Positions 42,905-63,751 of a stretch of DNA of 64,000 nucleotides are shown in pieces. The stretch comes from Cerrena zonata (lineage: Eukaryota > Basidiomycota > Agaricomycetes > Polyporales > Cerrenaceae). Location: NCBI GenBank assembly GCA_038087015.1, contig JASBNA010000071.1, positions 124,001-188,000 on the forward strand. Reading direction: 5' to 3'. Under the pieces are notes generated by a model. The model was not told the origin of the DNA, did no database searches, and saw only the letters and a list, made by a program, of their open reading frames with translations. The first letter of the stretch is position 1, and the number at the start of each line of letters is the position of its first letter. The position numbers and the translations under genes were made by a program.

Positions 42905-43003
42905 TAAACAACACTAAGTCGTCCAAAGCCAGAGAGCGACAAGACGACGCACAGTCAATCTTGTCACTCTAGGCAAAAACGAGCCGCTAAGGTTTCCGCT
43001 GTC
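42905..43003 (+). repeat. Element R, copy a (three-hairpin repeat)
   Basis: Hairpin 2 at 42938-42965 pairs GACAAGA with TCTTGTC and GAC with GTC around loop GCACA. The linker GCCAGAG precedes it. The conserved loop CCGCTAAGGTT is at 42984-42994. Hairpin 1 (loop ACTAA) is weak. It lies 236 bp upstream of the tiny cationic gene at 43239. Confidence 0.75.
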
Positions 43004-43238
43004 GTGTACTAATATAACGGGCTGGAGAAAGCTGAAGAACGAAGGGAGAGGGTGTGATGTTGAGTGTTACGTTAAGCATTGAAACGATGAGGTGGAAATA
43101 GAGTTCGAACCGCCAGTGATAGCCTCACCTTCTACTCGCGCTTCCGGACAGGACCGCTGTTGTGTTTCCTTTCTTCCACTAGATCGATCACATTATATAC
43201 CCCATCTGTTTTCCACTGAGGCATCGTTTGGTCGCGCA

Positions 43239-43596
43239 ATGAGCAACTTATTCTCTTCTCAGGTGTGTCTTTCTTCTCTTCCCGTTTGCCGTTTGTCTCA
43301 CCGTGGGCAGGAAACGTTGGTCAACCTGACCGCCGACGAGGTCGAATGGCGTCGTACCTTGAACTCATCTTCCCGAGCCGGCAATACCGATGCAGCTGAG
43401 GTATGTGAACGTTTTCTTTGAATCCTTCGTGTGCTGACCTTCGTACTAGCTTGTCGACGCCGACGAAAATGGTCTCACCCTCCGTCAACGTATCTTGCGT
43501 CTTACTCGCGCTGTAAAACGTTCCGCCAAGCACCAGCTCCAATCCGCGAAACACGGACTCGTTAGGGTGGTTAGGCAGGTGGTGGGACAGTCATAA
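43239..43596 (+). CDS. Tiny three-exon gene, cationic C-terminus (paralog 1)
   Basis: Encodes 86 residues: exon 1 MSNLFSSQ (24 nt), exon 2 ETLVNLTADEVEWRR.. (43311-43400), exon 3 (43450-43596) with RQRILRLTRAVKRSAKHQLQ and GLVRVVRQVVGQS, TAA. All introns are phase 0 with good GT/AG sites. A TATA-like TTATATA lies at about 43193. The second half is strongly basic and could form an amphipathic helix; the first half is acidic. No signal peptide or transmembrane segment. A paralog with the same exon plan sits at 54068-54460, which is the main evidence that this is a real gene. Function unknown; nucleic-acid or membrane binding are both possible readings of the basic tail. Confidence 0.7.
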
Positions 43597-43688
43597 GCTG
43601 GGCTTCTCTTCTTACTTTTCTTGCTTTTCTTGATGTCGTTCCATTCTTGCTTGATATCGTTCGTTCCTTTCGTGGTTGATAACACTTC

Positions 43689-43754
43689 TTTCTTGCTATC
43701 TTGTTACTATCCCTTTCTTGCTATTTTGTTACTATCCCTTTCTTGCTATATCCC
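43689..43754 (+). repeat. 25-bp tandem repeat in the 3' flank
   Basis: Unit TTTCTTGCTAT(C/T)TTGTTAC followed by TATCCC, two full copies and one partial, about 90 bp after the stop of the tiny gene. Likely in its 3'UTR. Confidence 0.8.
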
Positions 43755-43950
43755 TCCTCATCCTGTGTTCTTTGGTTAGTCTGAAATCATTGCCGACTCG
43801 CATGTAAGATACTAGTCATACTCATACCACAAACCTTTGTGGGCGTAACGCATGCTTGGGACCAGACAAGTCAGTTGCTATCTATAGTGTGTAGCCTCGA
43901 CGATCACCGGCTAACACGTTACATTCTGAACTGGAGTCCATCACCTAAAT

Positions 43951-44660
43951 ATGCACTCGTGTGTCTCTACACAGAACCCAGGGTTACGTCCGCGCCAGGG
44001 ACTATCTGTGGAGAATGAAACTTTAGTAGTCTATATCAGTGGAGGATATAGCAACAAGAAGAGAGACATACCTCGTACAGCCTGTTGCGCATGGTTCGGA
44101 CACGACCACCTGCTAAATATAATAAAACGCATTGAAGTGGGTTCCAAACCAGCGGCGGATATAGCGGCTGTACTACTTGCAGTGCAGAGGGCCCCAAACT
44201 TCGCCCCCCTACACATCGTGACCACATCAGCGTACATTATGGAAATCTTCACCAAACACTAATGAAATGGGAGGCGAAAGGCTGGACCGACATCAAGAAC
44301 GAAACCCTGATAAGGGCAACACTGGCAAGGTTAAGACGACGGTCAGCGGTCACCACTTTCAAGTGGACCAAGAAGGATGAGGCTAGCCTCGAAAACGAAG
44401 AGGCTGCGACGCGAGCCAGAAATGCATCAACAGGCCAGGAGCGAGAGGAACTGGACACTTCAATCGCAGAGTCTTTCAACCTAACAGGCCTGGAATTAGC
44501 CACAGCGAGCCAAGCCCTCATATACCGACACATCCGCAAAGAAAAGAACCCTGAACCACGTATGGCTGTGGAAAAAAACATGGAATGAATTCGAGACGAA
44601 ATAAAGAAACGGACGGGGAGGACGCCGAATCACACACATATATGGAAATCACTCATCACA
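43951..44660 (+). mobile_element. LINE (Tad-like) relic, RNase H part
   Basis: Degenerate C-terminal part of a non-LTR retrotransposon ORF2: LVVYISGGYSNKK, CCAWFGHDHLLN, PLHIVTTSAYIMEIFTKH, then KWEAKGWTDIKN and IYRHIRKEK. The layout is that of the RNase H domain, but the catalytic acids are gone (YTDGS-type Asp to Ser, the later TDS to TTS), and a stop interrupts the frame at 44262. Reverse transcriptase and everything 5' are absent, as in a 5'-truncated insertion. Confidence 0.75.
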
Positions 44661-46260
44661 GCAGTCGTTCTATGGCTTTCGTTGATAACCTCGAGCCCAC
44701 TGTAAGCTCGTTCTAAAAGTTCTGGCATGACTAGGTTTGGCTCTAGCATAGCTAATAGTTGGAGAGCGCCTTGCGCATAGCTGGAAGAAAGAGGATCTTT
44801 GGCAAACATTGCGAGCAATGTAGGTGTACGAAGGGTGGTAATGAAAGCATGCCGGATCGCAGGTGTGAGTCGTCGACCCTAGAGATGGTTCGTCATGTGA
44901 AGGAAGGGTCGGGAAAAATTATGTTTCGGGCTTACCACAGGTGTTTTGCAGGTTCGGACTTTCTCTTCGTTCCACCTCTTGCAAAACTCCACAGCAAGCC
45001 GATGCACGAAACCCGTCAGCTATTTTATGGGTTAATACATACCCTAGAACCACCGCGTAACGACTCACAGCCAAAGTCCAATGTCCAGAATTCGATGGGT
45101 GGAAATACGATTCGGTACTTGTGATCAACCTATCGAGAGAGTCCATGGCACGAGAGCCCGCGAGGAAACCTGGGCTGGCAATATCAGTCCTTAAAGGCCC
45201 ATCGAGTGACATCGAAAAAACTATGATCTTCGCCAGTGCGTCTGCAAGTAGGTTTTAAGACGAAACTTTTCAAATGTAGGACGGAATACATACCGAACTG
45301 GCTGATGAACTTTCTGATTCTCAATGACTGACGATTTCCCATGGTATCGGCATGGGTAGCGGTCGTACTCGCACCCTAATGTCTGTGTTCGCAGATTGAT
45401 CAAGTTATTCAGAAAAAAGAATCTCACCTTGACGACTCCCACTGGTACATCTGGTACATTGTCAGCTCTCATCATTCTCCAAGTGAATGTTGAAATTCCT
45501 CACTCATAGGATTAAGTGTGTGGCCAATCAGGATGGACCACTCGGCCTCTGACCAGATACCAACATCCTTATAGTCGGCAGCTGCTTCACCAGCGTCGCC
45601 AGATTTACCTGCGACAAATTCTTCTGATAACACCCCGCACAGGTCGAACAATCGGTCATCAGTTATGGAGGAGTTAAAGGTTTCCCATAATCTAAAGAAA
45701 GTCGGCATGTAAAGATGCGGATTAGCAGCGGGCAAGGAGGATGTCATCACAGGTATCATAGTCAAAATTGTCTGAGATATATATATTAGTTTACCTCAAG
45801 AATAGCCTTGCACTACACGTACATCCTTTGTGACCATTGGAACGAACGCTGACAACATATTGGGGATTTCTTCAGTAGGGTAATATCTGCTACTATGTTC
45901 AGCTACGTAGAGAAGGATGTTGATCATATTCCGTCTACAAGATCTCAGATGTAATTTCATTGACTCAATATTTCAATGGTAAACGTACGAAGATTATTGG
46001 AACCGTTTCTTTGGCCAAAGTTCCTTTTGCAAGACTCGCCATAACGGCTCCCAGGGTAGTTGGTGGATTCCAATCGCCTCCTTTGATCGGCTTTGCTACA
46101 GAGAAGACGAGAGATCATGTCAGCCCAGCTTCTCACAACACGAGGCTCAAGCCCAGGAACAAGACAAAGCTCATAGTAGAGTCGAACAAGTTTGGCACGA
46201 ATGGCAGTCGTCATTGTGTAGCGTAATAATAGCCAGCTACATTCGGATGAATGGTTTAGA
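44640..46260 (-). pseudogene. BLM10: Decayed BLM10 (PA200 proteasome activator) fragment
   Basis: Minus-strand blocks match the HEAT-repeat middle of the proteasome activator Blm10 in collinear order: AKLVRLYYELCLVPGLEPRV, then (after a 1-nt frameshift) LPWEPLWRVLQKELWPKKRF and a stop. Next come IPVMTSSLPAANPHLYMPTF, DDRLFDLCGVLSEEFVAG, YKDVGIWSEAEWSILIG, SPGFLAGSRAMDSLDRL, and finally SSYAQGALQLLAMLEPNLVM with LLERAYSGLEVINESHRT. N- and C-terminal thirds are missing and frames are broken, so it is not functional. It sits between two pieces of one LINE reading the other way. Confidence 0.85.
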
Positions 46261-46265
46261 ATACC

Positions 46266-47200
46266 ATTCAGGACTTTGAGCGATACTTGTTGTGGCTTAC
46301 CAGGGACAAGGCTTTCAGCCGGCCCAGATCAGACTTCCTCTGGAAAATACTGCATGGTGCCCACAAAGTTCGAAAATTTTGGACGAAACTTGCCGGGTAT
46401 GAAGATAGAGGGATCTGCCTGAGATGTAAGATAGCTGAAGACATGGAACACATACTATTCAAGTGTAACGCTCCCGGACAGCGACTAGTATGGCGGCTTG
46501 CACAAATCCTGTGGAGCAGGACGAAGAGGAACTGGCGTGGCAGAAACTTGGGCCTCCTACTTGGAAGTGCGCTCGTACCCTTCCCACAACCACCAGAGAC
46601 AACCCTAGAAGCCAACAAACTCCATGAGACGGGCAGACAGCCAAAGGGGAAGAAAAAGAAACGACGGACCAACGATAGATCGACAACGAATGGCGCTCAG
46701 AGACTGTACATGATCCTACTCTCAGAGTCCGCGTACTTCATATGGAAGCTACGCAACGAGCGTCGCATCAAGCATGCATCCAACCCGGATTTTGAGCATG
46801 CCGCGACCGAGATCGAGAACCGATGGTTTAGCATGATTAACACCCGCTTGACGCTAGACAGAGCGATGGCGAACAAAAAGAAACTGGTAAACAGGCAATA
46901 GACCCCAACCTAGTTCTCAAAACACGGAATGGCGTACTCCATAGCGAAGACAGACTTCCAGACGACTGGATTCGTACTCCTGGGGTTTTAGTGGGTAGGG
47001 GGTATCCAGAGGCGGGCGTGAACAAGCACCGTTGATGAAGGGTACCAGAGTCCCACACTGTTCACTGAAAGGTGAGCGTGCGTAACTGCATTTTTCCCCT
47101 TCGGTAGATCGCCCGGTTACGCCGGGATATAGCTTGACCTCTCAGAACTAACCAAGTTAGTTTCTGAACGGTCGTTAATAGCTCTTCCAAACAAAAAAAG
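46266..47200 (+). mobile_element. LINE relic, C-terminal part and 3' end
   Basis: Continues the LINE interrupted at 44660. TRDKAFSRPRSDFLWKILHG and HKVRKFWTKL are followed by a zinc knuckle-like CLRCKIAEDMEHILFKC and the typical late block AYFIWKLRNERRIKH. After the stop at 46901, another frame still reads LPDDWIRTPGVLVG, the usual end of this ORF2 family. The 3' end is probably the A-rich AAACAAAAAAAG near 47190. Confidence 0.75.
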
Positions 47201-47336
47201 AAGGGCACTCGTGGTACGTGATATAATGGCAATCAATCCCCGGTCCCTCGAACTACAACCGCTGCAAAATCATAGAACTCGGAATTCTTACCAAACTCTT
47301 GTGACAGACGATGGAACAACTATTTGCCCAATTCCT

Positions 47337-48010
47337 CTAGAAAGGTCTTGCTAGTTGGCGATTTTGGAGTACGGAAGATAGCTCATTGATACTACGCTGG
47401 AATTGGTGTACAACGGTAGCAGCAGTCCCTGTAGAGGATATGTCAATAGCTTCCCCAAGTATCACAGTGCAATGACTCTCCTGAGGTATAAGCATGTCGA
47501 GAGACAAAGGGCTTACTGCCCCGCACTTCATCTGTATGAGGAATGACGAGGAAGTATTCCGAGCTAGAGCAACGAACTTACCTCGAACTCATACCTATTA
47601 GAGTAAGGAGGGCGTCGATGTCGATTACATCCGTATATGGACGCTGGAGTAGAAGATAGTCAGCAGGAAGCCTGACACGGTACCAGACGTAGACATACCA
47701 GATTTGGTTCATGGAACCTGAGCCAGATTGGGCGACAATGAGGGCCCATAGGGCATATTGGAACAGATCATTGGCAAGATTGAGTGTATAGCACCTCTAG
47801 CGGCTAATGATCACGGAGAGTTCGAATACCGAAGAACATCTTGTGAAAAGACCATATTTTGGCATGGCACGTCCTTGAGCGGTACTGTACCAAGCTGGTA
47901 TGATTCGAGTACGCGAAAGCCAGGCCATGAATGATGAGCGTACTAGCATCGTGAGCATTTCCGTAGATGTCGGTAGACGACGTATACATAAGCATCCACG
48001 CCAACATACG
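47337..48010 (-). pseudogene. Decayed MYND-finger gene (copy H)
   Basis: Collinear with the MYND genes at 52660 and 55232. The first zinc half survives as VCWRGCLCIRR and, after a frameshift, KCSRC. The second half reads LVQYRSRTCHAKIWSFHKMF, where two zinc ligands are lost (Cys to Arg in YCSRTC, Cys to Phe after HKM), followed by a stop. Further exons ALWALIVAQSGSGSMNQIW and MKCGAVSPLSLD..VHQFQRSINELSSVL match the family and end at 47337. Probably non-functional. Confidence 0.7.
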
Positions 48011-48043
48011 GTAGCATTTACACACCTCCATCAGACACCTTTG

Positions 48044-48200
48044 TCTTGGCGATCTGAACAACCAGTGAGGAATAGAAAAAGATGGAATCGGCAGAGGATC
48101 CGACTCGACTATCCTCGTCATTTCGGCAAGAGTAAGGCCATTTCCCGATGGTATAGGACCAGGTACCTGAGCTGTGTTTAGCTATGACGGACAGTGACTT
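48044..48200 (+). pseudogene. Relic 5' exon of orphan gene O
   Basis: The DNA here aligns with an exon of orphan gene N (56455-56600: LAIRTTSEEYKNR..PTQL..FRQE). The frame now contains stops (LAI*TTSEE*KK). It lies divergent from MYND copy H, as gene N lies divergent from the MYND gene at 55232. Confidence 0.65.
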
Positions 48201-48424
48201 TGATATGAATCTTCTGGCAGTAAACATGACTTCACCTGTGATCTAAATAAGAATACGGATTAATTTTGAAATTGGCGTTGGTCACCACGAGCTGCCACGA
48301 GTCAGCCTCGAGTCTGAGCCACTCCCGCCACTGATAGCTACATATATAGACACGGTGAGTGGGCCACCCGGTACATTGTAGAAACAGTTTCTTACCAGCA
48401 CTCCCTTCCATAAACTTTCCCGTC

Positions 48425-49193
48425 ATGCTACCAAACGGACATCGATTCCAACTCAGCTTCGACATCTCCCATGGGGATGCTCCTACGGTGGTTCAGCTCC
48501 CAATCATCGAATATGTGGCACAAGTGAAGGACGAGAAACTGCAAAAGGAGGTGGCATTCAGGTGGGTCACGCGAGCTTGGCCATATAGTCAGACGATATA
48601 CTGATTGAGATTAGGGATGAAAACTCACAAATAAAGACAGAAGTAGACTCCGATAATTCTTACGTCGATGACGCTGTAGTCGACGGTACACACCGCCACT
48701 CAGCTGTGTCCCCCAGACGTGCAGTGGCTCGGTCCTCTACACCTCGAGACAAGGGATCAGTCGGCCGTAACAACGAGGTGAGAGAAATGTCTTGAACAAA
48801 AGCAATACCGTCATTGACATTATTTGATAGTTCAAGAATGTTTCGTCTAGACAAGCGATCAAGATGAGAAATCTGAAGCATTGGATCCATTGGTTTCAGA
48901 CCGAAAGTGACGAACCAGCCCATATGCCGCCGCCTGGGCCTTGGCCCGCAGACAAAGGACTTCGATACCATGACTTGTATATGCAACGCGCGGAGAATGG
49001 CGCACTAAAGGTGTGGAGGTATCTCCCGAACAACACTGGCGAAGACGGTAAATGGGTGCGATTGAGGGTGGGCGCAGAGGTCGACGTACCTGGATTGGCA
49101 GGACCTAGAGTTTTTGTCATCAATAAGCAGGGCAAGCCATCTTTCGTTCTGCAGGGAACAGTAAATAAGCTATACAACGAGCTGGAGAAGTAG
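48425..49193 (+). CDS. Orphan gene O, 3' part (related to gene N)
   Basis: Three exons can be joined. First exon: MLPNGHRFQLSF..APTVVQLPIIEYVAQV. An intron from GTGGGTC to GATTAG restores AFRDENSQIKTEVD.. and a second intron (GTGAGAG..TGATAG) leads to a clean last exon with KMRNLKHWIHWFQTESDEP, LKVWRYLPNNTGEDGKWVRL and VNKLYNELEK, stop at 49191-49193. Without the first splice the frame ends soon after, giving an end similar to one form of gene N. The exon upstream is decayed, so the start (ATG 48425) and functionality are uncertain. No recognised domain. Confidence 0.4.
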
Positions 49194-49323
49194 TAGTAGA
49201 TGTGGTAAAGTCTTACCAAGCGGATAGCTAGTGTAAATCACTCGGACGCCGTACGACTAGACGGGTGTTAATAGATAGTGATCATGCGACCGGCGGGCAG
49301 ACTTGGAAGGGACACCAGCAGCA

Positions 49324-49422
49324 GAACGACACAAAGTCGGTTGAAGCCAGGAAACGAGATGGCGCAAAGCCAGCCTCGTGCGATGGAGCGTCGGCAGACC
49401 GCTAAGGTTACTGTCGACTGAT
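49324..49422 (+). repeat. Element R, copy b
   Basis: Hairpin 1 AACGAC/GTCG(G)TT, loop ACAAA. Linker GCCAGG. Hairpin 2 at 49354-49379 pairs ACGAG with CTCGT and GGC with GCC (GAC/GTC in other copies) around GCAAA. Hairpin 3 loop CCGCTAAGGTT at 49399-49409, with GTCGGCAG pairing CTGTCGAC. Confidence 0.85.
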
Positions 49423-50039
49423 ACCGGCGAGGACGTCCAGTAGATGGCACGAGAGAGATTGGAGATGTGGGAATAGACGGCCTTCATGAACAAACTAGAG
49501 TGCATACGGTGTCAGCAACCAAGCAAGAGCAAAATGGACATCTACAACATCCGAAACGAACATGATGTCACGGAGGATTGAAGGGTGAGTCGACAGTTAG
49601 CCATGCTTGAGGGTTGTACTCCTTGTTGCAGTGAGAACGACGACCGATGGGCAGGATGATGGCAATTGGACGACGCAAAGTCGCCCACGCCAGAGGACGA
49701 GACGACGCAAAGTCGGTCTCGTTCATTGCGGTATCGACAGTCCGCAAAGGTTACTGCCGACACCGTCAATACAGCCAGCAGCAGAGAGAAAAGAGAACGA
49801 GAGACCGGGAGAGAGAGACCAAGAGTTCAAGTTCAAGGAAAGCTAGACACGAGTCGTCGATTCGGACACGCCTGAGCCACGCCTGAGCACGCCACTAAGC
49901 GCCGCTTGTCCTTGTTGTTTTCTAAAGTAGTTACCTTTTATAGAAGCACCAGCTCACGACGGGATATAAATAATAATGTTATATACACAGACTCTCGGCA
50001 AATATTCTAGTACAACAAGTAATAAAAGAGTAATACTAC
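49423..50039. other. Intergenic with R copy c
   Basis: Apart from element R copy c, no gene is supported. ORFs crossing this stretch are by-products of the repeat and a GAGA-rich patch near 49800. Confidence 0.5.
49641..49763 (+). repeat. Element R, copy c
   Basis: The best-preserved copy together with d. Hairpin 1 at 49668-49686 (loop GCAAA), linker GCCAGAG, hairpin 2 at 49697-49722 (ACGAGAC/GTCTCGT plus GAC/GTC, loop GCAAA). Hairpin 3 at about 49728-49763 has CAGT/ACTG closing loop CCGCAAAGGTT and an outer stem CGGTATCG/CGACACCG. It differs from copy d at two positions over about 123 bp. Confidence 0.9.
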
Positions 50040-51903
50040 TTATTTCTTGGCCAAGCGGCGGGTATATTTCAACCACGGCGACCTTCCCAAGTCTCGAAGC
50101 GTCATCCTTTGGCCAGGATCAACAATCAGCAGCCCAGCGATTACTTGTTTGGCTTCGCATTACAACGCAATGTCAGGCGCGCATTCAAACTTAGAAATTA
50201 GATACATACCTTGTGGGCTTACTTCCTTGGGTAGCAAGTTGTACCGGGGGCGCCACCGATCCTTTTGTGGTACCTCGTCATGACGATCTTCAAACGGTCT
50301 CGTTCCAGCAAGCCTGCAATAGTGATCGTCAGTGTCTGACAAGTGAAATGCAATACGCGTACACACATGTTGAAAATAACGCATCCGAGACCCCAGCTAT
50401 CGACAGGGAAACCGTACGGTGCCTTTCCATACCGGATCTCCGGAGCCATGAAAGGGGGTGTTCCAACCATCGTCTGCGCTCGACATCAGTCGCAACCTTT
50501 GCCAGGTCAGTCAGAAGTAGACGCACCATATCTGTCGATACCGGCTTTGCCAATCCAAAGTCACCGATTTTGGTAATAAACGGGTTCAAGGAGAAAATAA
50601 GGATATTCTAATGCAACTCGACGTCAGTGTTCAGACTCTTGCATCGAGCTCCACCGATACATACACATGGCTTGATATCACGGTGGGCTATGCCCTTACT
50701 GTGTAAGAACTTGAGTGCATCAGTCGCATCCTTAGCCATAGCCTTTGTGAGGGGTTCCGCTAGCATAAGTTCATCAATTATTCTGAACCGACTTCTGCAG
50801 ACAGAAGACAAACTTACAGACGGTCTTGTTGTCCTGAATAAAGGTTTGCAAATTTCCGTACTCTGCCTTCTCCATGATCATATCTGGCAACAGCGTGTCA
50901 ATGTCAATAGAACGAGCGAAGCTAAAAACAAAATACGTACATATAGCGGTTGGTTCTTTCAGAATTTCGTAGACGGCGACGAGGTAATCCTTCAAGCGGA
51001 AGTAACTATTAGAGTCACAAACAGAGCACGTTTACCAACAAGACTCACGTGTCTGTAGGAGGTGGAAATCTCGCATTCACGCTCCACGTACACATCTTCT
51101 CCGATAAGAGAAGCGTTGTTGATAGTGATCTTCTTCGCTGCATACTGCTTGCCCACCGCGCGCTTCCTACAAGCATATACCTCTCCGAAGCCCCCCCTAC
51201 CGAGCCTACCGACGACATTCATAAGCATCAATAAAAAGAACATGTTTGATGAAATACTCACTCCTTCCCACAATCATATAGCGAATCGAACTAGTCCAAA
51301 GTCAGACGAAGGAGGAGGACAGTAATGATGTCATTGACGTACCGAACCCACTGCAAATTGAGTGAACTTGCCCTCTACAGATAGGAAAGATAAGGAACAC
51401 AATCCCATCCAGCAATAGCAGACTCACCTATGATCCCTTGTGAACCACCATTTCCAATGGTGATCATGGCGCCATGTACTAGCTGGCGCGAGGTATGGGC
51501 AGCGATGGCATGACTATCAACCTACTTATGTCTTAGGTTGCCGGAAGCACACTGAACCGATTGAATGCACTACTCACAAATGTGCCGTTGGAACTTCCGT
51601 GGTCAAAGACTGAGACATCAAAGCCAGACGCTGACAACGTCGACTGGATACCTAAGTGAATACCGCCTTTGAACGCATAAGTTGTCCGTTGCTGCATGCT
51701 AAGATACATAAAGTGATTGACTCACTGACAAAATCACACTCGAAGATGACATTGCAACGATTAGGATCGCGTCCAAGGGTATAGAGTGTCTGCAAGGCCA
51801 ATGGGACTTCAAATTTCACGAGAGAGTCATCCGTACTCGTTAGCTTGCCCACCAGTGGCATAGTAAGACGAGGGAGCGGTCGGATAGTAACAGAAGTAGG
51901 CAT
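50040..51903 (-). CDS. FHA-domain Ser/Thr kinase, CHK2/Rad53-like
   Basis: Predicted nuclear checkpoint-type kinase. The N-terminal FHA domain reads TLYTLGRDPNRCNVIF and FDVSVFDHGSSNGTF; the phosphothreonine-binding Arg and the Asn-Gly are present. The kinase domain has GRLGRGGFGEVYA (P-loop), YAAKKI (Lys), KFLHSKGIAHRDIKP (catalytic Asp), KIGDFGLAK, VGTPPFMAPE and VDSWGLGCVIF. A short end LIVDPGQRMTLRDLGRSPWL follows, terminating RRLAKK with TAA at 50040-50042. Many short introns. ATG 51903 (MPTSVTIRPL). The kinase core looks intact. Its C-terminus stops soon after the kinase domain, without the SQ/TQ cluster typical of Rad53 or Chk2, so it may be a specialised paralog. The FHA S-x-x-H could not be placed across the intron. 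Confidence 0.82.
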
Positions 51904-52659
51904 GGTTAGGCTGGAAGACGGGGGTTCAATGCTAGCAGAGAGGGAAATGGAGGTAATGGAATGAGAAGATGGAAGGGAGATTCGGGGAGCGAGGGGGATT
52001 TATGGTAAACAGAGCACAAAGAGCAGTGGCTCAGGCTATGCCCGTCGTCAGTGGCCAAAGGCCATCCTAGTCAATCACCGACATGAAAGGTAGGCCGGCC
52101 AAAAGCCAAAGCATCAGTGGCGAACAAGCTCACCGTTAACATGCGTACAGTATGTCAAAGCGAGAGGCATGGCCGCGATCCTAGTCTAGCAGCCCACTCA
52201 ACGATACGGAAATCCTTTGACCCATCTCCAGCTTTGTCGACACTGAGAAACGCGGCCATAGCGAATGAGAAAGAGGGCGGGCCGACTCAGAAGAAGGGGG
52301 CCAGTTCACGAGCAACAAGAGACCGACTGGCTTGTATTGTCACATGCATTTTCGCAACCTGTGCCTAAATCGAGATGAGATTCAACATCGGATGCGCGGG
52401 GACCCTAGAGATGTCACATCAGCACGCGGTGCACACAAGGCGTCGATATCACCTCTCGGAATGTTCGAGGAGTTCGCTCCGGATGCTATAGTCGGTTCAT
52501 CAGCTTCCCGTCCATTGTTCTGTTCTCTAGCACTCACACGCACTCACAATGCATTCGTGAATGGGCCACGTAATGATCGGATATCCACATTCAATTCTCT
52601 TCACAACTACAAATCTAACTAAATTGGTCGACGCCGATGAGGGCTACCGAAACCCACGG
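51904..52659. other. Intergenic, no supported gene
   Basis: Upstream region of the FHA kinase, then about 600 bp with only unsupported ORFs. Confidence 0.55.
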
Positions 52660-53478: not shown

Positions 53479-53752
53479 TGTGGACGAGAGGGCTATGATA
53501 TGGGAGAAATAATCGAGGAAAGAAATAGGGATGTACGCAGTTTACATATTATACCCCCGGTAGCTCTGTTCCCAATCCCAGATAGGAGCAAGAATCCTCT
53601 TGGAACGCATGCGTAAGCCATGAGTCGAGTATGTCTTCTTTCCAGAGACGCAAGCTAGAGGCACACCCCCGCTTCCAATCGATCAATTAAGGTGCCAGTA
53701 GGAGGTCAGTGGAGACCAACATGGTCAAAGATCCCTAGATAGTAAGAGTCCA

Positions 53753-53875
53753 CGACTGATGGGCAGGATGATGGCAATTGGACGACGCAAAGTCGCCCAC
53801 GCCAGAGGACGAGACGACGCAAAGTCGGTCTCGTTCACTGCGGTATCGACAGTCCGCAAAGGTTACTGCCGACAC
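53753..53875 (+). repeat. Element R, copy d
   Basis: Differs from copy c by two bases over about 123 bp, so a recent duplicate. It lies 193 bp upstream of the tiny cationic gene at 54068 and 275 bp upstream of the start of MYND copy G (minus). Confidence 0.9.
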
Positions 53876-54067
53876 CATACGGCCAAAGCTAGAGGGACAT
53901 GGAGGAGGATTCGAAGTTGAAGTCGAAGTCGAAGTCGGAGGGTTGACTCGGAGGTGAGACTGCGGTCGACATGAGTTAAGTCGAAGGCAGCGTGCTTGAC
54001 GCCAATACTTGCCACGCGCCTATCCGGACCGTTACCGCACCTGATCGATCACCCTCTACTCTGCACA

Positions 54068-54799: not shown

Positions 54800-55054
54800 C
54801 TAGTCACAAGATGAGAAGATATCATACCGCAACTTGTCAGCAGGGAAGTCTCCCTCAATGGAAACAAGCACAGGCCGGATGAGACGTCCATTGGGATGCT
54901 CGGTCGTAGGCAAGCATCGAACCCCAGAGTTCCACATCGACTCCAAATCTTCAATCAATGGGCCCAGGAGATGATCTAATCGATCGGCAGTAGGACGCAG
55001 TGGTGAGGCAAGTATACACACACGATGTACGTTATAATGATGTAAACCCGCCAA
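54800..55054 (-). mobile_element. Plavaka/CACTA (Tnp2-like) transposase fragment
   Basis: An open stretch of 84 codons reads HHYNVHRVCILASPLRPTAD, DHLLGPLIEDLESMWNSGV and GRLIRPVLVSIEGDFPADKL. The order (I-x-G-P-type segment, L-x-P-L-x-x-x-L, V-R..L-V-x-x-x-x-D-x-P-A) matches the part of Plavaka-family transposases preceding the catalytic core. Everything else of the transposase is absent, so it is a relic. Confidence 0.6.
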
Positions 55055-55231
55055 GAGATCGAAGTGCTATTATTTCATTCCCGACCGAAACGACATGGTG
55101 TGCTATTGTCCCCTTCACATACCTCACACTAGGTCGTCGGATCTCAGTCATGAGACGCAACAAACTGTGTGACCCAGTCAATCTACGCTCCCTCGATATA
55201 CATCCGCCGTCTGTAAGTAAACACGCACACA

Positions 55232-56002: not shown

Positions 56003-56210
56003 TGAAGAGATGTTAGTAAGGCAACCAAGAGGGGCAGCAGAGGCCAGTATTTAAGTATACTGCGCTGTGGCTCTTTGACAGCAGGGTGGGTGATAACGAA
56101 AGAGGGAGTATCAAATATCGATGGCAGATATCCTGTTACCCTATAACTGTCGTCTGTCCGTATCCGATACTATATCTTTCAATCTGTTCATTCCCTTGAC
56201 CACGTCTACT

Positions 56211-57143
56211 ATGATGTCCAACGATCCCGCTATTTTACTTGGACAGGATCCGCAAGAGGCGCAAGCTTCCGTTTCTTCCCGATCCACCCATCATGAAGCC
56301 TCCGCTTGTCCCCGATCCACCCATCATGGGATATGGACAACAAACGACATTTACATCAGGCTATTGCAGAAGCTCAGTGACGGACAACGAGACTGTAAGT
56401 ATGTCTCATTATCATATTCTCCTATAACGCTCACCTCATCGATGTTAGATACTTTTGTCCTGGCAATCCGAACGACCAGTGAAGAATACAAGAATAGGTC
56501 TTCGGCCGATCCGACTCAATTGCCCCTGCCGTTTCGGCAAGAAGACTTATGTAGAGTGACCCAATGCCCAGGCGGTATGGGATCAGACCAGTGGCTTCCA
56601 GGGTTGGAAATTCCCATGGACTGTGCAGTTGAAGTGAATATGCAAGCAGTAGGTTGAGCTGTAGATAAATACAAAATCATTACTGACTGTTCAACAGTCG
56701 CCTGGAGAGCCATTACTGAGGTTTCCTATCAATGTCGCCCGGGAGTGTCCGTGGGATGAACCAACTGTCGAAATTACTATTTGTAACGAACAAGCGCATG
56801 AACTATGGTTCTCGTTCGTGGTGGAGGTATTAGCTGAAAAGGCCACTAACCTCGCTCTAGCTGAATCTATCAGATGGGATTGGATGTCAAGGCCTGTCAG
56901 CATTGAACAATTGGAGGGCTTGTGACGTTTACCAGCGATATGGGAAGTCTGAGACGGCCTCTTGGTGTAACTAGAAAAGACGCAATGAAAGTTTTATACG
57001 AACCGGAAGATTCTTCTTTTAAACATGGCCAGATATCCAAAATGCAGCAATATACCATTTCTCCGTCTCACCATCGATTGAGGGTCATTGCCGAGGGAGA
57101 AAGTATGACCAAAAGACCTCGGGCCAGAGACTCGGAAAGATGA
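56211..57143 (+). CDS. Orphan gene N
   Basis: Exon 1 MMSNDPAILLGQDPQEAQAS..WTTNDIYIRLLQKLSDG; intron with GTAAGT and acceptor GTTAG; exon 2 DTFVLAIRTTSEEYKNRSSA..MGSDQWLPGLEIPMD; intron from GTAGGT to CAACAG; exon 3 SPGEPLLRFPINVARECPWD..SIRWDWMSRPVS. Without more splicing it ends at 56925; with the intron 56922-56974 it continues KDAMKVLYEPEDSSF to TGA 57143, 2-3 bp before element R copy e. An in-frame ATG at 56121 exists, but a TATA-like ATACTATATC at about 56168 favours 56211. Divergent partner of MYND copy F. It resembles gene O. No recognised domain. Confidence 0.55.
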
Positions 57144-57144
57144 C

Positions 57145-57258
57145 CGGTGGGGGAATGGGATAACGCAAAGTGACCCCATGCCAGTGGGCGAGACGACGCA
57201 TAGTCAATCTCGACCGGGGTTGCATCGTGGACCGCTAAGGTTACCACTAATAATATCG
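57145..57258 (+). repeat. Element R, copy e
   Basis: Hairpin 1 is weak (AAC/GTG around GCAAA). Linker GCCAGTG. Hairpin 2 at 57189-57212 pairs CGAGA with TCTCG and GAC with GTC around GCATA. Hairpin 3: GTGG/CCAC around CCGCTAAGGTT (57232-57242). Begins immediately after gene N. Confidence 0.85.
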
Positions 57259-57793
57259 TTCTGTAACGACCAGAAATTGAAGAACATGATCATAAAGTTA
57301 GAGTCCGTAGTCTAATGGGCGTCGGCATTGCCCGCAAGGCCTAGCCCCAAAGCTCACACTGTCATGTGCCGCTACTCGGTAAGCGCCGAACCGGAGAATG
57401 AAAAGATACGTTATATTACCGTTCTCCACGTATTGTAACTTGTGACTCAGACGTGCACTGCTTTTCTGACTCTCCGCTCAGGTTTGCCCGACCCCCTCGA
57501 CGTCTGGTTTACGAGACTACTGTTACTCCTCCTCATCCCTAACAAGCTTGCCGCTATCTCTTAGTAAGTTAGTTTCTTCGAAACGTTTTACCTTATCGGC
57601 TTCAAATCCTATGTAAGTAATATTTAGCATCCCTCGAGCGAGAATAGATAAATAAATCCTCTTCATAAATATTAATGATGAAACGACTCGGAGGTATATG
57701 TACCAGCCCTCCTAGGCCAAATTAATATTATAGAAACTGGTATCGAAATGATTCCGATCTCATTCAAATCCACTAGCTTGCTATAGAACCCGT
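57259..57793. other. Intergenic
   Basis: Lies between element R copy e and the convergent gene K. AT-rich in its second half. No gene supported. Confidence 0.55.
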
Positions 57794-60175
57794 CTATCGG
57801 CGGTCACTTGGTCTGCCTCGTTCCGCAGGCAATGGCCTGTCATTAGGCCCTTTGACATGGGCGTAGCGTTTAGCATCACTAACTCGACTGGTCAGGTTCA
57901 GCACTGAGAAAGAAAGCAGAATATCGTACATTGATATCCTCTCCGGGATAGATAAATCGACCGGGGGTTGGATGTCAAGGTCTTCTAGCATGTTTTCGTC
58001 TTGTTCACGCAACCATGTGGGGTCGTAGCAGTTTCTGGGTAGGCCACGTATAGCACGTGAGTCTACCTCTAGGCTGCTCTCCACACGGTAACGAGGCCAA
58101 TTTCCGGCGGTGGCACGGCCTACTGAAGAAAAGCGGGATTGTAGATGGATGAGATCAAGAATTCGCATAACGTTTGTCAATTCGGGTGAGCGCCATGGCA
58201 GCTTCACTATCCTGTACCGTGGAGGAGTCAACGTTTTACCAGTTTTTCCTGTGTCAGTCTCGTCGCCACTTATAGCGCCTGTACCCATGGTGTCGAGAAG
58301 GTTGGAGAACTTCCTAAGAGCAGACATTGAGCTCGCGATATCCAACCGACGCATACCTAGCTGCATGTCCTCCGTCAGTGACACCTTTTCGTTCGCCACT
58401 TTCATATCACTCACACTTTTACATCTACTGTTCCTAATGTCCCTCACAAAGTTCTTCTCTAAACGTTCTTGTTGTCGTGGCTCCATGTGATCCACATTGA
58501 TGAGCTCATATTGTCTCACCAAGGCAGGAATATGTCGAAGAACCTGCTCCTGAACGACACGCACATCATCCGTGATGCAGTCCTTTGTCTCGACATACAA
58601 TCGCGCTAGAATCAGAGCGCCACGCTGGTTCCAGAGGCTTCTCTTCCTGTAGCCCATGACATCGAGGTTGAAGTTCTCCTTTGTGGGTCCCCCGCGTTTG
58701 GTCTTTTCTACTAAATCGACTTCCTTCTTGGTCGGCGGTTTGGGGAATGGCGATTTCTTGGTATCTCGACCCATAAGAAACATTGTCACTTTCCTCAGTT
58801 GATTCTACAGGTAACAGAGATAAGAGGTAAGCTTTCACGTAAAGAGAATCGACGAACCTGAAGAAGTTTAACCTCCAATGAAGCACTTTGCCTAGCGAGT
58901 CGTGGGGGCCGCCGGGTCTTCGGGACAGGTGCGTAGTCAAGGGTAACGGGCCGTTGGGGAGTCTGTCTGGACGAATAGTCCGCAACACTACCCCGCCGAA
59001 GGATTTCTTCCATTGCATGGTACAAGGGAAGGATATCCCGAGCCTCGAGAGCTGCCTTCTGGAAAACAATCCGGCTTCGTGACAACACTCATAAATAATC
59101 TAACATAGGGATGACATACTGGTTTACTCTTCTCAAGATGTCTCTGAGTACGGTGCTAGAGGTGCGATGAGTCAGAGAATTACCAGTAGTGAGGTACAAA
59201 ATCACTTACAAGCTGGACTTCAGGTACCATGTCCTCATCATCGCCCTCATTCTCATCATCACCGCATGATCCGTCATCATCATCATCATCATCATCCTGG
59301 TCATGGCGTGAATCGTCAGTATCATCATTATCACCACTCCCTTTTGTGGTTCTGATTCTGACTTTCTTCGCTTTCTGCCCCTGCAACGTACCGCGACGAT
59401 GCCATTCCTGCCTTACCGTTCCGGCGCTTCCATTCTTTGACGTCCCAATATGTAGTCAGTGGATGTCGATCATGCTTCCGAATCTACTGAAGATGACTTA
59501 CATCTGAATTATTGCCAGCTCGCTCGTCCTGTTCAGGAATTTCACTGTTGAAAAGATCTAGCTGTTTCTCTACCTCCACTGAGTCTGTTCTATCGACTGC
59601 TGCAGGATCCATAAGCACATCTTCGTCGGGATGTACTATATATACATGTAGTAAATGGTACTGAGTCGAAGCACCTTGAATTGTCGTATGATAGATAAAT
59701 ACCTTCCTCTCGAATACTCGGCTCCTCCTCGGTGCCACTACTGGCATCTGTAAGGATCGAAAATGTGAATCTCGTGTGATGGGTTCCTGAGTGTCATGCC
59801 ACTTACCAAAAATAGGTGCGACGGCTCCTCCAGTGCTGACCTGAAATGCCGACGCAGGTAGGCCTCCAGATCGAGAGGTCCGCCCCTCAGACATAGGATG
59901 AGCGGAAGATGGCTCAGAATTGCTTTCCGCGTCCATAGTATCCGAGTCTGCGAGTGACGTGTAGTAAGTACTAAGTAGAAGATAACTTAAGGCAAATACA
60001 CACTATCATTGTGATGTGAAGAGACTTCACTGTCAGCGCGTACTTTTTGGAGGATCTGGCTCAGTTGTTCAATAATGCTCTGAGACGACGAGTTTGCTGA
60101 TGGTCCGAGTCCACGCTTGAGAGCGTCATGGCGACGAGAGCGATTCGTACGCGTAGGTCTGTCGACTAGAGACAT
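57794..60175 (-). CDS. Orphan gene K, large acidic-linker protein
   Basis: About 610 residues over nine or so exons, all joining in frame from MSLVDRPTRTNRSRRHDALK (ATG 60175) to GRPSDRR (TAG 57794). The N-terminal third is Ser/Glu-rich disorder; a run of eight Asp sits in a long acidic stretch (HDQDDDDDDDDGSCGDDENE). The rest is helical and basic: LEARDILPLYHAMEEILRRG, a Pro/Lys block, MGYRKRSLWNQRGALILARL, ERLEKNFVRDIRNSR, then LPWRSPELTNVMRILDLIHL, GNWPRYR, GLPRNCYDPTWLREQDE and LDIQPPVDLSIPERI. This last part resembles, from memory, multi-copy hypothetical proteins of Agaricomycetes that may be transposon-associated; I cannot verify that. No known enzymatic motif. Confidence 0.65.
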
Positions 60176-60460
60176 AATGAGGGAGTGTTGCGTTTGTAGA
60201 TCCTCACCCCTTGCCTTATACATGTACAACGCCACTCGACGTTACACCCCAAGAAGTACACGCTTACAGATGCAAGATCTTGTCGTATGGGTCTGACTCC
60301 AGGTATCAACGCCAAACTGATATTACACTGCGCTTTGATTTCTACCCTGTATGGAGCTCTCCGCTTCCCAATGATCATCCCTCCCGCCCAGAATACACGC
60401 CTTTAGCGTGCCGTTCGTTCATGTTTACAAACAAGATTGAAAAATATATTTTAGCCCAAT

Positions 60461-60955
60461 TTAACGCCCAGACAATATAGTCAACGCTATCGCAAGAGTC
60501 TGAACAAAGAGGATTCCCAGAAGCCAATGAATCACGGTTGCCGACCACGGGCTAGCAGCACTATCAAAACGTTGTTGATCCTCGCCGTTGCTCCATCTCT
60601 TCACACATGAATCTAGACGTTTTACATCCGCCTGAAGGAAAGTTGTCAGAAACGCACAGACGCAGGTGCAACCGCATTACCTCAGTGATAGGCTGTTTGA
60701 TGCCATCGAGTGAGTTCAGGGAAGTCAGAAGTCTCTCGAGTATGATCGCTCGTATGAGGGCCTTTTCACGAAAGTTACGTTAGGTAGAAATTGAGAGAGA
60801 GAAGGTTTACCTACTTCATCGTCAATGGTTATCTGCCCCGCGGCTACTGTACGCATGCCGCTAGGGTCGCCTTCCGTGATTGGGTTGTTTCGGATTGGTG
60901 CTGAGTGGCGACCAAGGATCACAGTAGGGGGGAAATCAGCTCGAGGGGGGGGCAT
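60461..60955 (-). CDS. Orphan gene L, small tail-anchored protein
   Basis: About 137 residues in three exons: MPPPRADFPPTVILGRHSAP..ITIDDE, then ALIRAIILERLLTSLNSLDG.., then ADVKRLDSCVKRWSNGEDQQ and a single C-terminal hydrophobic helix (TVIHWLLGILFVQTLAIALT) ending ILSGR, TAA at 60461. Splice sites are canonical (GTAGGT and GTAATG donors). The hydrophobic helix at the extreme C-terminus suggests a tail anchor. Gene M next to it on the same strand also has one late membrane helix. Family not recognised. Confidence 0.55.
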
Positions 60956-61072
60956 CGTGTAACTTGCATCCGTCCAATCTCATGTGCTATTTACACCACA
61001 AAGAAAAATGTGAAGGTTGCACTTCACTTGATCAACAATGTCACGAAATTCTAAGATTATAACAACATGGAA

Positions 61073-61928
61073 CTAGAACGCTGTTCGAGCAGTCAACTCC
61101 GATCGTGCTTTGGTCCACAACGGGCGTGTATCGGCGTGTGGTGAATCAGATCTTACACCAGATCGCACGGTAAGCACAATGGCAGCTACGGCCATGACCA
61201 CAATACACGTAAACTTGATGAGAACACGATCAGGTGGTGACCAGAAACACCTTTGGAGCGTGTTTTCCATTTTTTGAAAGAACGCCCAACATTCCGACCG
61301 CAACAAGACAAATCTGTGGTGGATGACAGGTCGAATCAACGCTATGACGGAATCTTGACGGGGATTATTATCCAGTCTATCATCGATTGGAAGAGGAGTA
61401 TTGACTATCGTGCCGGAGAACGGGAGAGCGTCTTTGGTACGGACGTCAAGCCCTGGACAGTAGAGGAGTCAGCTGCAATGTCAGGCGGCGGATTGGCTAC
61501 TTGACCGACGAAACACGGCCATTCACGAGTGCTTACCATGCGGAAACGTTGCGATTGGACGGGAAAGGCCAGTCACCTTGTGAGAGACGTCGAGACGAGA
61601 CTGAAATCAAAGACGGATTGAACAGGAAAGTCAGTCTAATCATTATTAGGCACTCACCAATTCCGCCTTTACCTCGGCTAGTTCATTCATTAGGCTTGCT
61701 AGACCTTTGTTGAGAGTATCTATCTGACCCTGCTGGGTAGAAATCTCTGCTCGGAGATGAGACAAGTCCGTTTCATCTGATTGTCGTATTTCCGGACATG
61801 CTGCTACTGAACTTTTGAGTCGAATTCACAAGTATTCAATGAAAGAGCTTACCTGGGGAGCATGAAAGACCTTCTGCGCTCTCAATTGGCTCTATCAACA
61901 ACGGCTGGTCGTAGGTCGGAGAACTCAT
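61073..61928 (-). CDS. Orphan gene M, coiled-coil membrane protein
   Basis: Exon chain: MSSPTYDQPLLIEPIESAEG..SCSP; an exon with heptad-like DLSHLRAEISTQQGQIDTLN..LMNELAEVKAEL; two short exons; then SECWAFFQKMENTLQRCFWS and a membrane helix (VLIKFTCIVVMAVAAIVLTV) before a short tail ending ARSELTARTAF, TAG. Start 61928 is the first ATG and lies 230 bp from the divergent gene J. One splice uses a GTCCGT donor, inferred to avoid an in-frame stop, so the middle of the model is uncertain. Architecture (coiled coil, one late membrane helix) is like a small membrane tether. No family recognised. Confidence 0.45.
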
Positions 61929-62159
61929 TGCGGGAGGTCAGGAGAAGTAACCTGTGAGTACGTTTAGGTAAACGCACGGCTTGATAACGGACAGGAAATG
62001 AACACACGTGTATTCAACTCGCGTAAACAGCCTGCGTGTGATCAGGTCCTCGGGTGACTACACGCACTCACAATGAACCTCACGACCGAGGTGCGCATAC
62101 AGTGGTACTCGCACGAGCCTGCAGCACGTTACTATCATCAAGGTTGAAAGGATAAAATC
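61929..62159. promoter_or_regulatory. Divergent promoter of genes M and J
   Basis: 231 bp between two outward starts. No clear TATA box. Confidence 0.4.
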
Positions 62160-63436
62160 ATGACTTCGGGGTCAAGTTTCCATCAAATTTACAAACTGCT
62201 TTTCGATATGCGGCTTACCTATCGTCAAAGTAAGTCTCCCCCATCGTAAATAAGCCCTATATCTGTTAACACTCTCTAATAGAAGTGTGTACTCTTCTCA
62301 CTCATGTACCGCTGAACGAAGAGGGGGAGAAGACATTCAATCTTTCATGGGTGATATCACAAGGTAAGTCCTGAGCCCTGGATGCTGATTTGACCGATGT
62401 TGATTATGAGTAGTCGGGTCTCAGAACATCGGACCCTATGGTGTCACGTACATCAAGAAGGCCCTTGCGTCAGAGGTGAGCATCGCTATGCCTGTCATTG
62501 CTTATCTGTGTCTCATATTAGAGCAGACGATACAGGGTCATATTCAAGTCTTGAACGGTAGTGATTTCCGGGAAGTGTCCTGGCATGACGACGTGGTGTT
62601 TGGGGTAACAGCAAGCGGAGAAAACTAGTAAGTTGGCAGTCTGCTAGCATCAATGCACTCCTTAGTAATACGCGCTTTGAGTTTTAAGGAAAGCGAACAG
62701 TTAAGATTGACTCCCGTAGTGGAGATGGAAGTACCAACTCCAATTCAGGAAGAAGACACATTGACGGAGGAAGATGAAGACGCGACGGGAAATGCCCTTG
62801 AACTGGTGAGCTTTACAGAAATACATCGCCTCATTCGCTTACTGATTGAAGAATATTTCAGGATGTTGGTGGACCGTTGGCGAATGGTATACAGTCCGAA
62901 GACGCTTTGCTAATTTCACCAACATTGAGATACCCAGAATCGTTAGAAGAACTGGATCAGGTGGAGGAAGCTGCGATAACGGTGAGTACTAATAACGCGG
63001 CCATAAGCATAATGTCTAACCTTGTGCAGCAAACACTGGCAGTCGGTACGTTGTCCCTCATCGAGAAATATCTACGGGAAAGCGAAGGCAATCCCACGAT
63101 GATTACGGAGGCACTGAGGGCGGCGGAGGGAGAGGCTTTGGGAAACGGCGAGTTTCGTGAAGTCATGCTCCTTGTAGGTCCCGCCCGTTACTCAGAGTCT
63201 ATCTCTGTTTAACCTCCATTTATGTAGACCCTGCGAAACCTAGCACTGTCTCATGCACGGAAAGCAGCGGTAAGTTTTCATCAATCTTATCCATTTATTG
63301 CAAATTAAAAGAGAAGGTGCAGATGGAAAGGTTAAGTCTTCAGGTAAACGGTTACACGGCGATAATAGCATCGACGTTGCGTAGGAATGAAGAAACCATC
63401 AAAGACTTACGTCGGCACCTCGTTCCGTTCGAGTAA
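62160..63436 (+). CDS. Orphan gene J
   Basis: Multi-exon chain: MTSGSSFHQIYKLLFDMRLT.. (62160), KVCTLLTHVPLNEEGEKTFN.., VGSQNIGPYGVTYIKKALAS, QTIQGHIQVLNGSDFREVSW.., an acidic exon EEDTLTEEDEDATGNALEL, DVGGPLANGIQSEDALLISP.., QTLAVGTLSLIEKYLRESEG.., then LSHARKAA and MERLSLQVNGYTAIIASTLR..HLVPFE, TAA at 63434-63436. The join near 62635-62690 is not resolved. The C-terminal half looks helical. The N-terminal half looks beta-rich and slightly like C2-type folds, but that is a guess. Followed by element R copy f. Family not recognised. Confidence 0.5.
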
Positions 63437-63640
63437 GGGATACTTTGAGACGTCATTTGTGTATTTATGTATGGTTCCGTTGGTATATTATTCATTGCAT
63501 CGGGAAAGGATAGAGAGGGCGAGCTTGAAAAATAAAATTAGAATGAGCACTAACCGGGTCTAGAGTGCGAAAATGAGGTGATCAGAAGGTCTGATAAAAG
63601 ATATCGATGGTGCGTAAGTATAGGTATGAGTGACCAGGCA

Positions 63641-63751
63641 GCAGTTACGACAACACTAAGTTGTCTCGTGCTAGAGGATGAGACGACGCAGAGTCAATCT
63701 CATCTTATGGGTATCAGTGTCATGCGGGCCGCGAAGGTTACCGCCGATACC
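63641..63751 (+). repeat. Element R, copy f
   Basis: Hairpin 1 at 63649-63665: GACAAC/GTTGTC around ACTAA. Linker GCTAGAG. Hairpin 2 at 63677-63704: GATGAGA/TCTCATC and GAC/GTC around GCAGA. Hairpin 3: GCGG/CCGC around CCGCGAAGGTT (63729-63739) with outer GGTATC/GATACC. Confidence 0.9.

Follow-up and report, generated by a model that had tools for sequence, protein, structure and literature searches.

A folded element of three hairpins, here called element R, recurs at intergenic positions within a giant transposon of the basidiomycete Cerrena zonata, and no RNA family tested fits it. The window, a stretch of 64,000 nucleotides of contig JASBNA010000071.1 (C71), holds six full copies of R, a seventh that is inverted and partial, and one lone hairpin. 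In our preferred, still tentative, reading R acts as a structured RNA belonging to a lineage of giant EnSpm/CACTA transposons, and its three hairpins bind one protein. Somewhat speculatively, giant CACTA elements of wood-decay fungi may carry such a multi-copy three-hairpin module, bound by one protein, punctuating the cargo and pointing to the ends, as a code written in RNA or single-stranded DNA by which that cargo is organised, expressed or moved; we know of no code of such kind for class II transposons. If true, covarying folded modules of conserved position would mean that eukaryotic DNA transposons can depend on an RNA structure or on a single DNA strand that folds, a dependence unforeseen by cut-and-paste models, and R offers a handle on how giant cargo-carrying elements of Basidiomycota, of which we know little next to the Starships of Ascomycota, maintain the order and expression of many genes.

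Copies of element R and their covarying fold

The six full copies of the original prediction are each matched by a covariance model, R1, at 83.1 to 90.4 bits (E ≤1.2e-15), namely a (window 42900-43005), b (49318-49420), c (49662-49763), d (53774-53875), e (57152-57253), and f (63642-63750), although R1's own alignment included five of the six and d is a near-duplicate of c. Covariance model R2 places them on the minus strand at 42890-43016 (a, 101.0 bits), 49308-49431 (b, 88.3 bits), 49652-49774 (c, 100.1 bits), 53764-53886 (d, 98.8 bits), 57142-57264 (e, 91.1 bits), and 63632-63761 (f, 96.2 bits); c and d form a 125-bp repeat, 98% identical, and are therefore counted as one observation. Copy g (63946-64000, plus strand, R2 24.9 bits), the first of an oppositely oriented arm, is cut by the window's end and entire in the next stretch of the contig (L030 946-1075, R2 78.5 bits), while the lone hairpin (41128-41149, minus strand, R2 21.6 bits) is of the middle-hairpin type and lies within the terminal inverted repeat. 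Loops and stems of the six window copies agree with the earlier description, but the linker GCYAG that it gave does not hold throughout: outside the window, many copies carry ACCAC, TCAGA, or others.

On the minus strand, the ~105-125 nt of R are drawn as three successive hairpins, each C-G closed around a five-base loop of type U-N-W-G-Y, and two of the three have an interruption on the 5' side (AA/AAA, UU), unpaired or wobble-paired, two to three pairs below the loop. In the preferred reading, this strand would form the three hairpins in a row and, given the similarity of their loops and the paired changes in their outer stems, each hairpin would most likely dock the same RNA-binding protein.

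Covariation over 20, 22, and 41 copies, all from one genome, supports the proposal that a folded single strand is under selection. The 20-copy alignment was chosen from a pattern list before any model existed, so its loops matched by choice; it leaves out near-identical duplicates, as well as copies that are truncated or score weakly (13.4 to 53.6 bits on R1), and the 22-copy alignment adds two copies from contig C77 (61.7 and 41.9 bits). With the minus-strand structure, 94.6% of cells in the 22-copy alignment are paired and both partners change in 18 of the 23 pairs; none of 500 shuffles reached the observed value on each of five measures, and the best slid control was 66.0% paired. Covariation is also present over the 20 copies with the plus-strand drawing. 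All 53 model matches, 41 of them distinct (the copy listing has 43 copies, 32 distinct), gave 93.8% paired and both-sided changes in 18 of 23 pairs, in an alignment fitted to the covariance model and hence biased toward it.

The original prediction had all six copies on the plus strand; they do share one orientation in the window, but minus is most likely the strand that folds, because inferred G.U origins outnumber A.C in the minus-drawn structure (36 vs 8, p 2.5e-5, one fixed U.G pair omitted) and A.C outnumber G.T in plus letters of the plus-drawn structure (26 vs 11, p 0.02). RNAalifold gave -22.2 kcal/mol for minus (22 copies with flanks) vs -12.6 for plus (20 trimmed copies), two sets that differ. 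Single-sequence folding of 10 copies does not separate the strands (mean z-score -2.98 minus vs -3.29 plus), and by eye the minimum-energy fold retains all three hairpins in five of the 10 (c, f, g, h, k) on either strand. This one-strand tolerance of G.T would also suit folded single-stranded DNA, and hence what we regard as the main rival, possible if on the unlikely side, in which R is a DNA site whose single-stranded fold is bound by transposase or a partner and joins the ends or times transposition with replication.

No Rfam family matches R in the stretches scanned, for which a known RNA family or ribozyme is rejected, and the original prediction had not recognised R as a known ribozyme, SINE, snRNA, or intron core. 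At gathering thresholds the window yielded one tRNA and nothing else; 501 bases with b and c, searched at E up to 10, gave three matches (two snoRNA-like, one viral UTR) far below gathering scores, and 501 bases with copy r gave none at E up to 5. A Pol III gene is likewise rejected, an A-box-like string being seen by eye in only a few copies.

A giant EnSpm/CACTA transposon as the carrier

Positions 40320-64000 form the left part of a giant EnSpm/CACTA transposon, identified by its terminus CACTGGGTATAACCCAGT, an empty homologous flank, and a tnp2 gene farther right. The transposon starts at 40320 (CACTGGG...) and runs past the window to the contig end, with its own right terminus beyond that end; we infer a total of about 51 kb. 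On contig C90, the homologous flank stops exactly at the 40319/40320 boundary and then continues without the element. Matching inverted ends on contigs C68 and C71 define the left terminal inverted repeat (40320-41530, plus strand): its first 1000 bases are 98.9% identical to the opposite end in C68 (1008 positions), and 41083-41530 recurs inverted at the end of contig C71 with 96.7% identity. The termini are of the CAC...GTG type with inverted repeats (CACTGGG at C71:164320, the opposite end at C68:177184), and within the terminal 801 bases there is an array of the GACTGACT type together with weak repeats. A tnp2 transposase (Transposase_21, PF02992, 5.3e-15) lies right of the window on C71 (L031:5313-6821), with homologues in C46 and C68. 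A 3-bp duplication, AGT, was found against an empty site at one 1260-bp derivative with the same ends, and pertains to this small derivative only, the giant element's right flank being absent from the assembly.

Whether R is itself a transposon end, a question raised with the original prediction, has a divided answer: the terminal inverted repeats do contain a lone hairpin of like kind, located ~810-820 bp from the end and pointing outward at three of three places seen, but the three-hairpin module is internal. Among the loci read, GACTNWGYGTC outside R copies occurs only in these repeats.

The pattern GCANAGNC-N20-50-CCGCNAAGGTT has 21 matches in 55.5 Mb vs 0 for the reversed pattern, more than chance accounts for, and 20 of them lie on contigs C46, C68, C71, and C77; the remaining match, on C14, is rejected as a copy (best R2 match 4.9 bits). 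With up to two mismatches allowed, 28 of 29 matches fall on the same four contigs, and neither the pattern searches nor a DNA search gave a clear copy outside them. Two looser patterns were uninformative, one without excess over its control (2024 and 2069 vs 2226 and 2279), the other with 41 matches vs 19, 20 of the 41 on C46, C68, and C71. The copies are thus not dispersed, as had been supposed: R is restricted to four contigs bearing giant EnSpm/CACTA elements, where it sits between genes, spread over tens of kb at a spacing of 0.1 to 12 kb. Segmental duplications of 97-99.9% identity account for much of its copy number, which is what one would expect of an old passive repeat (SINE, MITE, or satellite), segmentally duplicated and with hairpins by descent only. 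We consider such a repeat very improbable: loops stay constant and stems change on both sides across copies of two elements whose shared ORF stretches are ~28-72% identical, no clear copy was found beyond the four contigs, and the place of R beside genes A1, C, I, and J is common to the C46 and C71 elements. SINEs have a Pol III RNA-derived head and dispersed copies with target duplications, and a SINE is rejected for R, with no RNA-family match at the scanned copies and that concentration on four contigs. A viral origin is also rejected, two patterns giving 0 matches in IMG/VR.

Outside the window the orientation of R flips. On C71, C46, and C77 the copies are directed away from one switch point, and on C68 toward the terminus, with no exception among R2 matches in either case. 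This polarity would be expected of a transposition site, and the DNA-site reading also gains from the confinement of R matches to contigs with these EnSpm/CACTA transposons and from the outward lone hairpin at three places in the terminal inverted repeats. Weighing against it, cut-and-paste transposition is not known to us to need single-stranded DNA, two other tnp2 lineages have no R2 match in 10 kb of each (C85 and C34), and known CACTA subterminal repeats, of which R might be an enlarged, internalised form, are described in PMC8978399 as 10-20 bp long and near the ends.

Cargo genes and the placement of R

The structured-RNA reading, which we prefer, draws on how R is placed beside the cargo. 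In the window, gene E (50222-51999, minus strand) has kinase-like exons homologous to C46:30564-32104, where the C46 copy matches Pkinase (5e-9). Gene D (57794-58804, minus strand) shares 46-62% identity with C46:22445-23323, with no Pfam match for it or for the C46 pieces, and gene G (48831-49193, plus strand), also in the C46 element, is 52.5% identical over 120 aa and has no Pfam match. An RVT-like zinc-finger ORF at 46260-46901 falls under Pfam's cut-off. A LINE UTR element is rejected as an identity for R, an unsystematic look having noticed no RVT-like ORF beside most other copies.

In both diverged elements, the nearby conserved stretches of the transposase and of genes C, D, E, F, H, and J lie on the same strand as R's fold; gene K agrees with it in C71 and sits at the switch in C46, and several gene stretches (A1, B, G, Y) run opposite. 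Before gene C, a same-strand R ends 71 (C71) or 83 bases (C46) ahead of the presumed first ATG. TATA-like boxes stand directly before copy g, and one is found 20-250 nt upstream of eight of 25 distinct copies, near-identical duplicates included, vs 508 of 5000 random places. By eye, a TATA-like box also lies between R and genes I, J, E, and A2', so R is probably outside their main 5' UTR. The box AACAAGGACAAGCGGCGCTTA upstream of copy c (49896-49916, minus strand) recurs (0 to 6 mismatches) on the same strand, 73 to 199 nt ahead of copies c, n, i, v, and, as a weak case, o; four of its 12 matches are elsewhere, not upstream of an R. We infer that R, lying between genes, would be part of short transcripts, either leaders or promoter-associated RNAs, of the genes that face outward, and that it may mark or regulate transposon RNA.

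In 10 listed cases, R or the lone hairpin also comes after a conserved ORF stretch (gene D, E, C, F, J, or K), 249 to 1020 bases past its end and on the strand of that gene, as would suit a 3'-flank RNA element that ends, insulates, or stabilises the transcript of the preceding outward gene. This is improbable: AATAAA stands between gene and R after J (C46) and K (C71), so that R may there lie past the poly(A) site (the signal is weaker or absent in other cases), and R is closely in front of gene C in both elements.

The C46 and C71 elements differ in gene order, and C71:211457 and C68:181013 lack the 4112-bp unit that separates c from d, each with a single copy having c-left and d-right flanks; a junction in C68 and C71 also coincides with the hairpin of copy b that is third in plus order. 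R could on these grounds be a recombination junction for gene-module shuffling, with a logic comparable to integron attC, which we hold to be highly unlikely. Ordinary homologous recombination suffices for the loss of the c-d unit, given the 98% identity of c and d across 125 bp, and all rearrangements seen are compatible with it; other breakpoints (C71:179017, C68:181235) lie outside R, and no site-specific recombinase was noticed in an unsystematic look.

Comparison with known systems

In integron attC sites, as in R, one strand folds into imperfect stems with unpaired bases, the sites share an orientation, and gene modules lie between them; a tyrosine integrase recombines at a fixed point of the folded strand. 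R differs in being three separate hairpins in a eukaryotic DNA transposon. HDV-like ribozymes are structured RNA repeated inside retroelements, and hammerhead ribozymes are also described inside mobile elements, again retroelements, in PMC6431247. Unlike both, R has no Rfam ribozyme match in the scanned stretches, no conserved junction core that we could see, and a class II carrier.

Starships have a captain tyrosine recombinase as first gene; the transposase found in R's carrier is tnp2. Like the Starships of Pezizomycotina and the enlarged 16-20 kb En/Spm of Chondrus crispus (PMC6431247), the carrier is a large DNA element with several non-transposition genes; its tnp2, its CAC...GTG ends, and the 3-bp target duplication in one derivative do not make a Starship layout, and it has an estimated length of ~51 kb and contains R. 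Fungal EnSpm/Plavaka elements with TET/JBP genes have CAC..GTG ends and 3-bp target duplications according to PMC12730594, where the words subterminal, hairpin, and cargo are absent from the main text; the carrier shares such ends, and the duplication in one derivative, but a non-exhaustive Pfam scan of 29 distinct ORFs gave no TET/JBP domain.

Among the titles and abstract openings found, none describes such a module. The genomes in PMC8216456 are all Ascomycota, as that paper states, and PMC5640933, a search of fungal noncoding regions whose motifs number 15, lacks the words transpos and Basidiomycota. The subterminal repeats of CACTA elements, again from PMC8978399, are direct and inverted units within several hundred bases of the ends. 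R resembles them as a repeated, end-oriented site in a CACTA-type element with a like hairpin in the terminal inverted repeat; it is rejected as one of them, being internal and far longer, covarying as a fold, and lying between genes over tens of kb.

Copies of element R across the genome

Element R, a module of three hairpins with covarying stems, had been claimed to occur in six copies (a to f) in the window, and all six are present as matches to the covariance model drawn on the plus strand (R1), with c and d forming a single 125-bp repeat at 98% identity. A wider search took in the 171 contigs (55.5 Mb) of the genome that the window (C71:124001-188000) comes from. In it, a two-hairpin pattern gave 21 matches against 0 for a reversed control, 20 of them on contigs C46, C68, C71 (the window's contig), and C77; the match on C14 is not an R copy according to the minus-drawn model (R2). 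With as many as 3 mismatches allowed, the hairpin 2 core matched 45 times genome-wide (control 0), with 38 matches on these four contigs and the remaining 7 carrying 2 or 3 mismatches. Scanning 19 loci with R2 at an E-value limit of 1 yielded 53 matches, a count that includes partial copies and takes the overlap between the window and locus L030 twice; at this threshold, none fell in L046 and L047, which bear other lineages of the tnp2 transposase. Four copies (C46:18647, 33176, 40729, and 46713) have the first hairpin, in minus-strand order, altered or cut and the other two kept.

Fold, covariation, and strand

On 20 distinct copies aligned on the plus strand, the plus-drawn structure leaves 87.5% of cells paired, with both-side changes at 14 of 23 pairs, and four of five measures were reached by none of 500 shuffles, while further pair types were not above shuffles (345/500). 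Its A.C cells outnumber its G.T cells (37 vs 13), the opposite of what is expected of plus-strand RNA. On the minus strand, with two C77 copies added (22 copies), RNAalifold returned three hairpins at -22.2 kcal/mol, compared with -12.6 kcal/mol for the plus-strand alignment, which has fewer copies and shorter flanks. This minus structure is 94.6% paired, with both-side changes at 18/23 pairs, no shuffle (0/500) reaching any of the five measures, and 66.0% for the best slid version; across all 41 distinct model matches, in an alignment fitted to the model, the values are 93.8%, 18/23, 0/500, and 58.8%.

In minus-strand order, the first hairpin has the stem tip ACC-UUAGC-GG and is followed by a variable linker, the second reads GACGAGA-UU-GAC-UUUGC-GUC-G-UCUCGUC and is also followed by a linker, and the third is GACGAC-UUAGU-GUYGUY; the loops share the form U-N-W-G-Y with a C-G closing pair. 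Independent origins inferred on a tree number 36 for G.U and 8 for A.C in the minus structure (one fixed U.G pair excluded), which was selected on the minus strand and is hence biased toward it, and the oppositely biased plus-drawn structure still gives 26 A.C against 11 G.T origins (p 0.02). Single-copy folding does not separate the strands (mean z -2.98 minus, -3.29 plus; 10 copies each). The original prediction had drawn R on the plus strand; the counts on both drawings indicate that the folded strand in the window is most likely the minus. Its proposal that the fold is under selection is well supported within one genome, by covariation in both alignments and in all 41 distinct matches.

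The giant CACTA carrier

R is carried by a giant EnSpm/CACTA element. By ORF comparison, C46 and C71/C68 have the same set of genes in diverged form (about 28-72% identity per ORF stretch) and in different order. Pfam matches comprise a tnp2 transposase (5.3e-15), a kinase (5e-9), a SUN domain (6.6e-9), and a MYND finger (2e-5), with DUF4218 adjoining the transposase and WD40 repeats below curated cut-offs; no transposase was seen in the examined part of C77. The cargo of the elements that start at window 40320 (C71:164320, running to the end of the contig) and at C68:177184 includes kinase, SUN-domain, WD40-like, and MYND genes as well as unknown families, and LINE-like ORFs lie within the element at window 44136-46901 (zf-RVT 0.0017, under the Pfam cut-off). 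For gene C, a protein search gave 8 relatives: three reach 52-62% and come from contigs of 3.5-4 kb, and the others, among them sequences from Fomitopsis and Athelia, are weaker. The genome also has tnp2 genes of other lineages, about 32-40% identical, at C8:76443 and C8:118335 (two copies in inverted orientation, separated by 42 kb) and on C16, C26, C34, and C85, the last with a distant SUN-domain-gene relative about 16 kb from tnp2.

Comparison of duplicates revealed the transposon ends. At C68:199801-201060 lies a palindromic insertion of 1260 bp, not in C71, with the ends CACTGGG...CCCAGTG and an AGT target duplication; it is a fold-back form derived from the end of the giant element, and paired ends of this type also occur on C11, C90, C21, C26, C51, and C62, the terminus having 18 matches in the genome. 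The window's element opens with the CACTGGG end at 40320, as does the C68 element at 177184, the two being 98.9% identical over 1008 positions. In C68 this end adjoins gene F, which in C71 lies at the right end of the element, so both ends carry this terminus; as C71 stops inside the right terminal repeat, the window's element would be about 51 kb in full. A different end, CACTGGATCG..., is common to C46 and C77 and lies at the point where their sequences diverge; it also belongs to an abundant family (333 matches at up to 3 mismatches), and many listed matches are paired about 0.69 kb apart, as in a MITE-like family. The left end of the C46 element was not found.

C90 contains a stretch 97.8% identical to the host flank up to window 40319; this stretch continues without the element, into sequence found in C90 only, and is probably the other allele. 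Just left of the insertion, tandem paralogous stretches (window 37603-38269 and 39373-40031, about 82% identity) are duplicated in C90 as well. A tRNA gene at window 35685-35770 probably has an intron, given its 86 bases against a 71-position model.

REARRANGEMENTS: C71:211457 and C68:181013 each have one copy flanked on the left as c is and on the right as d is, which means that the 4112-bp unit separating c and d was lost or gained, an event for which homologous recombination suffices; one junction lies inside copy b, at the third hairpin (plus order). Large inverted duplications within the giant elements (C71:173381-179017 vs 192954-198591; C46:30076-33569 vs 48756-52249), at 99.8-99.9% identity, are possibly recent or possibly assembly effects.

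Placement of R and the nature of the folded molecule

The folded strand switches along three of the carriers. In C71, every copy as far as 187.75 kb folds on the minus strand and every copy from 187.96 kb onward on the plus. The change comes between 46.8 kb (minus) and 48.9 kb (plus) in C46, and between the minus copies at 53.5-57.0 kb and the plus copies at 69.2-70.0 kb in C77. All C68 copies are minus and face the end at 177184. Inverted duplications partly account for this pattern, so the copies are not independent in this respect. A DNA reading, in which R folds as DNA, is kept alive by this polarity toward the transposon ends and by an R-type hairpin in the terminal repeats: in about 240 kb, the 11-base GACTNWGYGTC is present 60 times within R and 3 times elsewhere, and all three of the latter lie in terminal inverted repeats, pointing outward (rough chance expectation 0.5).

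R lies between genes, and in the C46 and C71 elements alike gene C, the transposase gene, and gene J each have a copy ahead of them on their own strand, and gene A1 has one beside it. A recurrent box lies 73-199 nt upstream of copy c and of copies n, i, v, and o outside the window, with 8/12 of its matches upstream of R (duplicates of c and i included) and 4/12 elsewhere. TATA-like boxes are commoner near R (upstream of 8/25 copies vs 508/5000 random places), an excess that is weak evidence because the copies are related and the random places include coding sequence. Judged from sequence, we put first the reading that the folded molecule would be RNA, ranked above DNA since R follows the orientation of the majority of the conserved genes, precedes some of them, and apparently has signals upstream of it.
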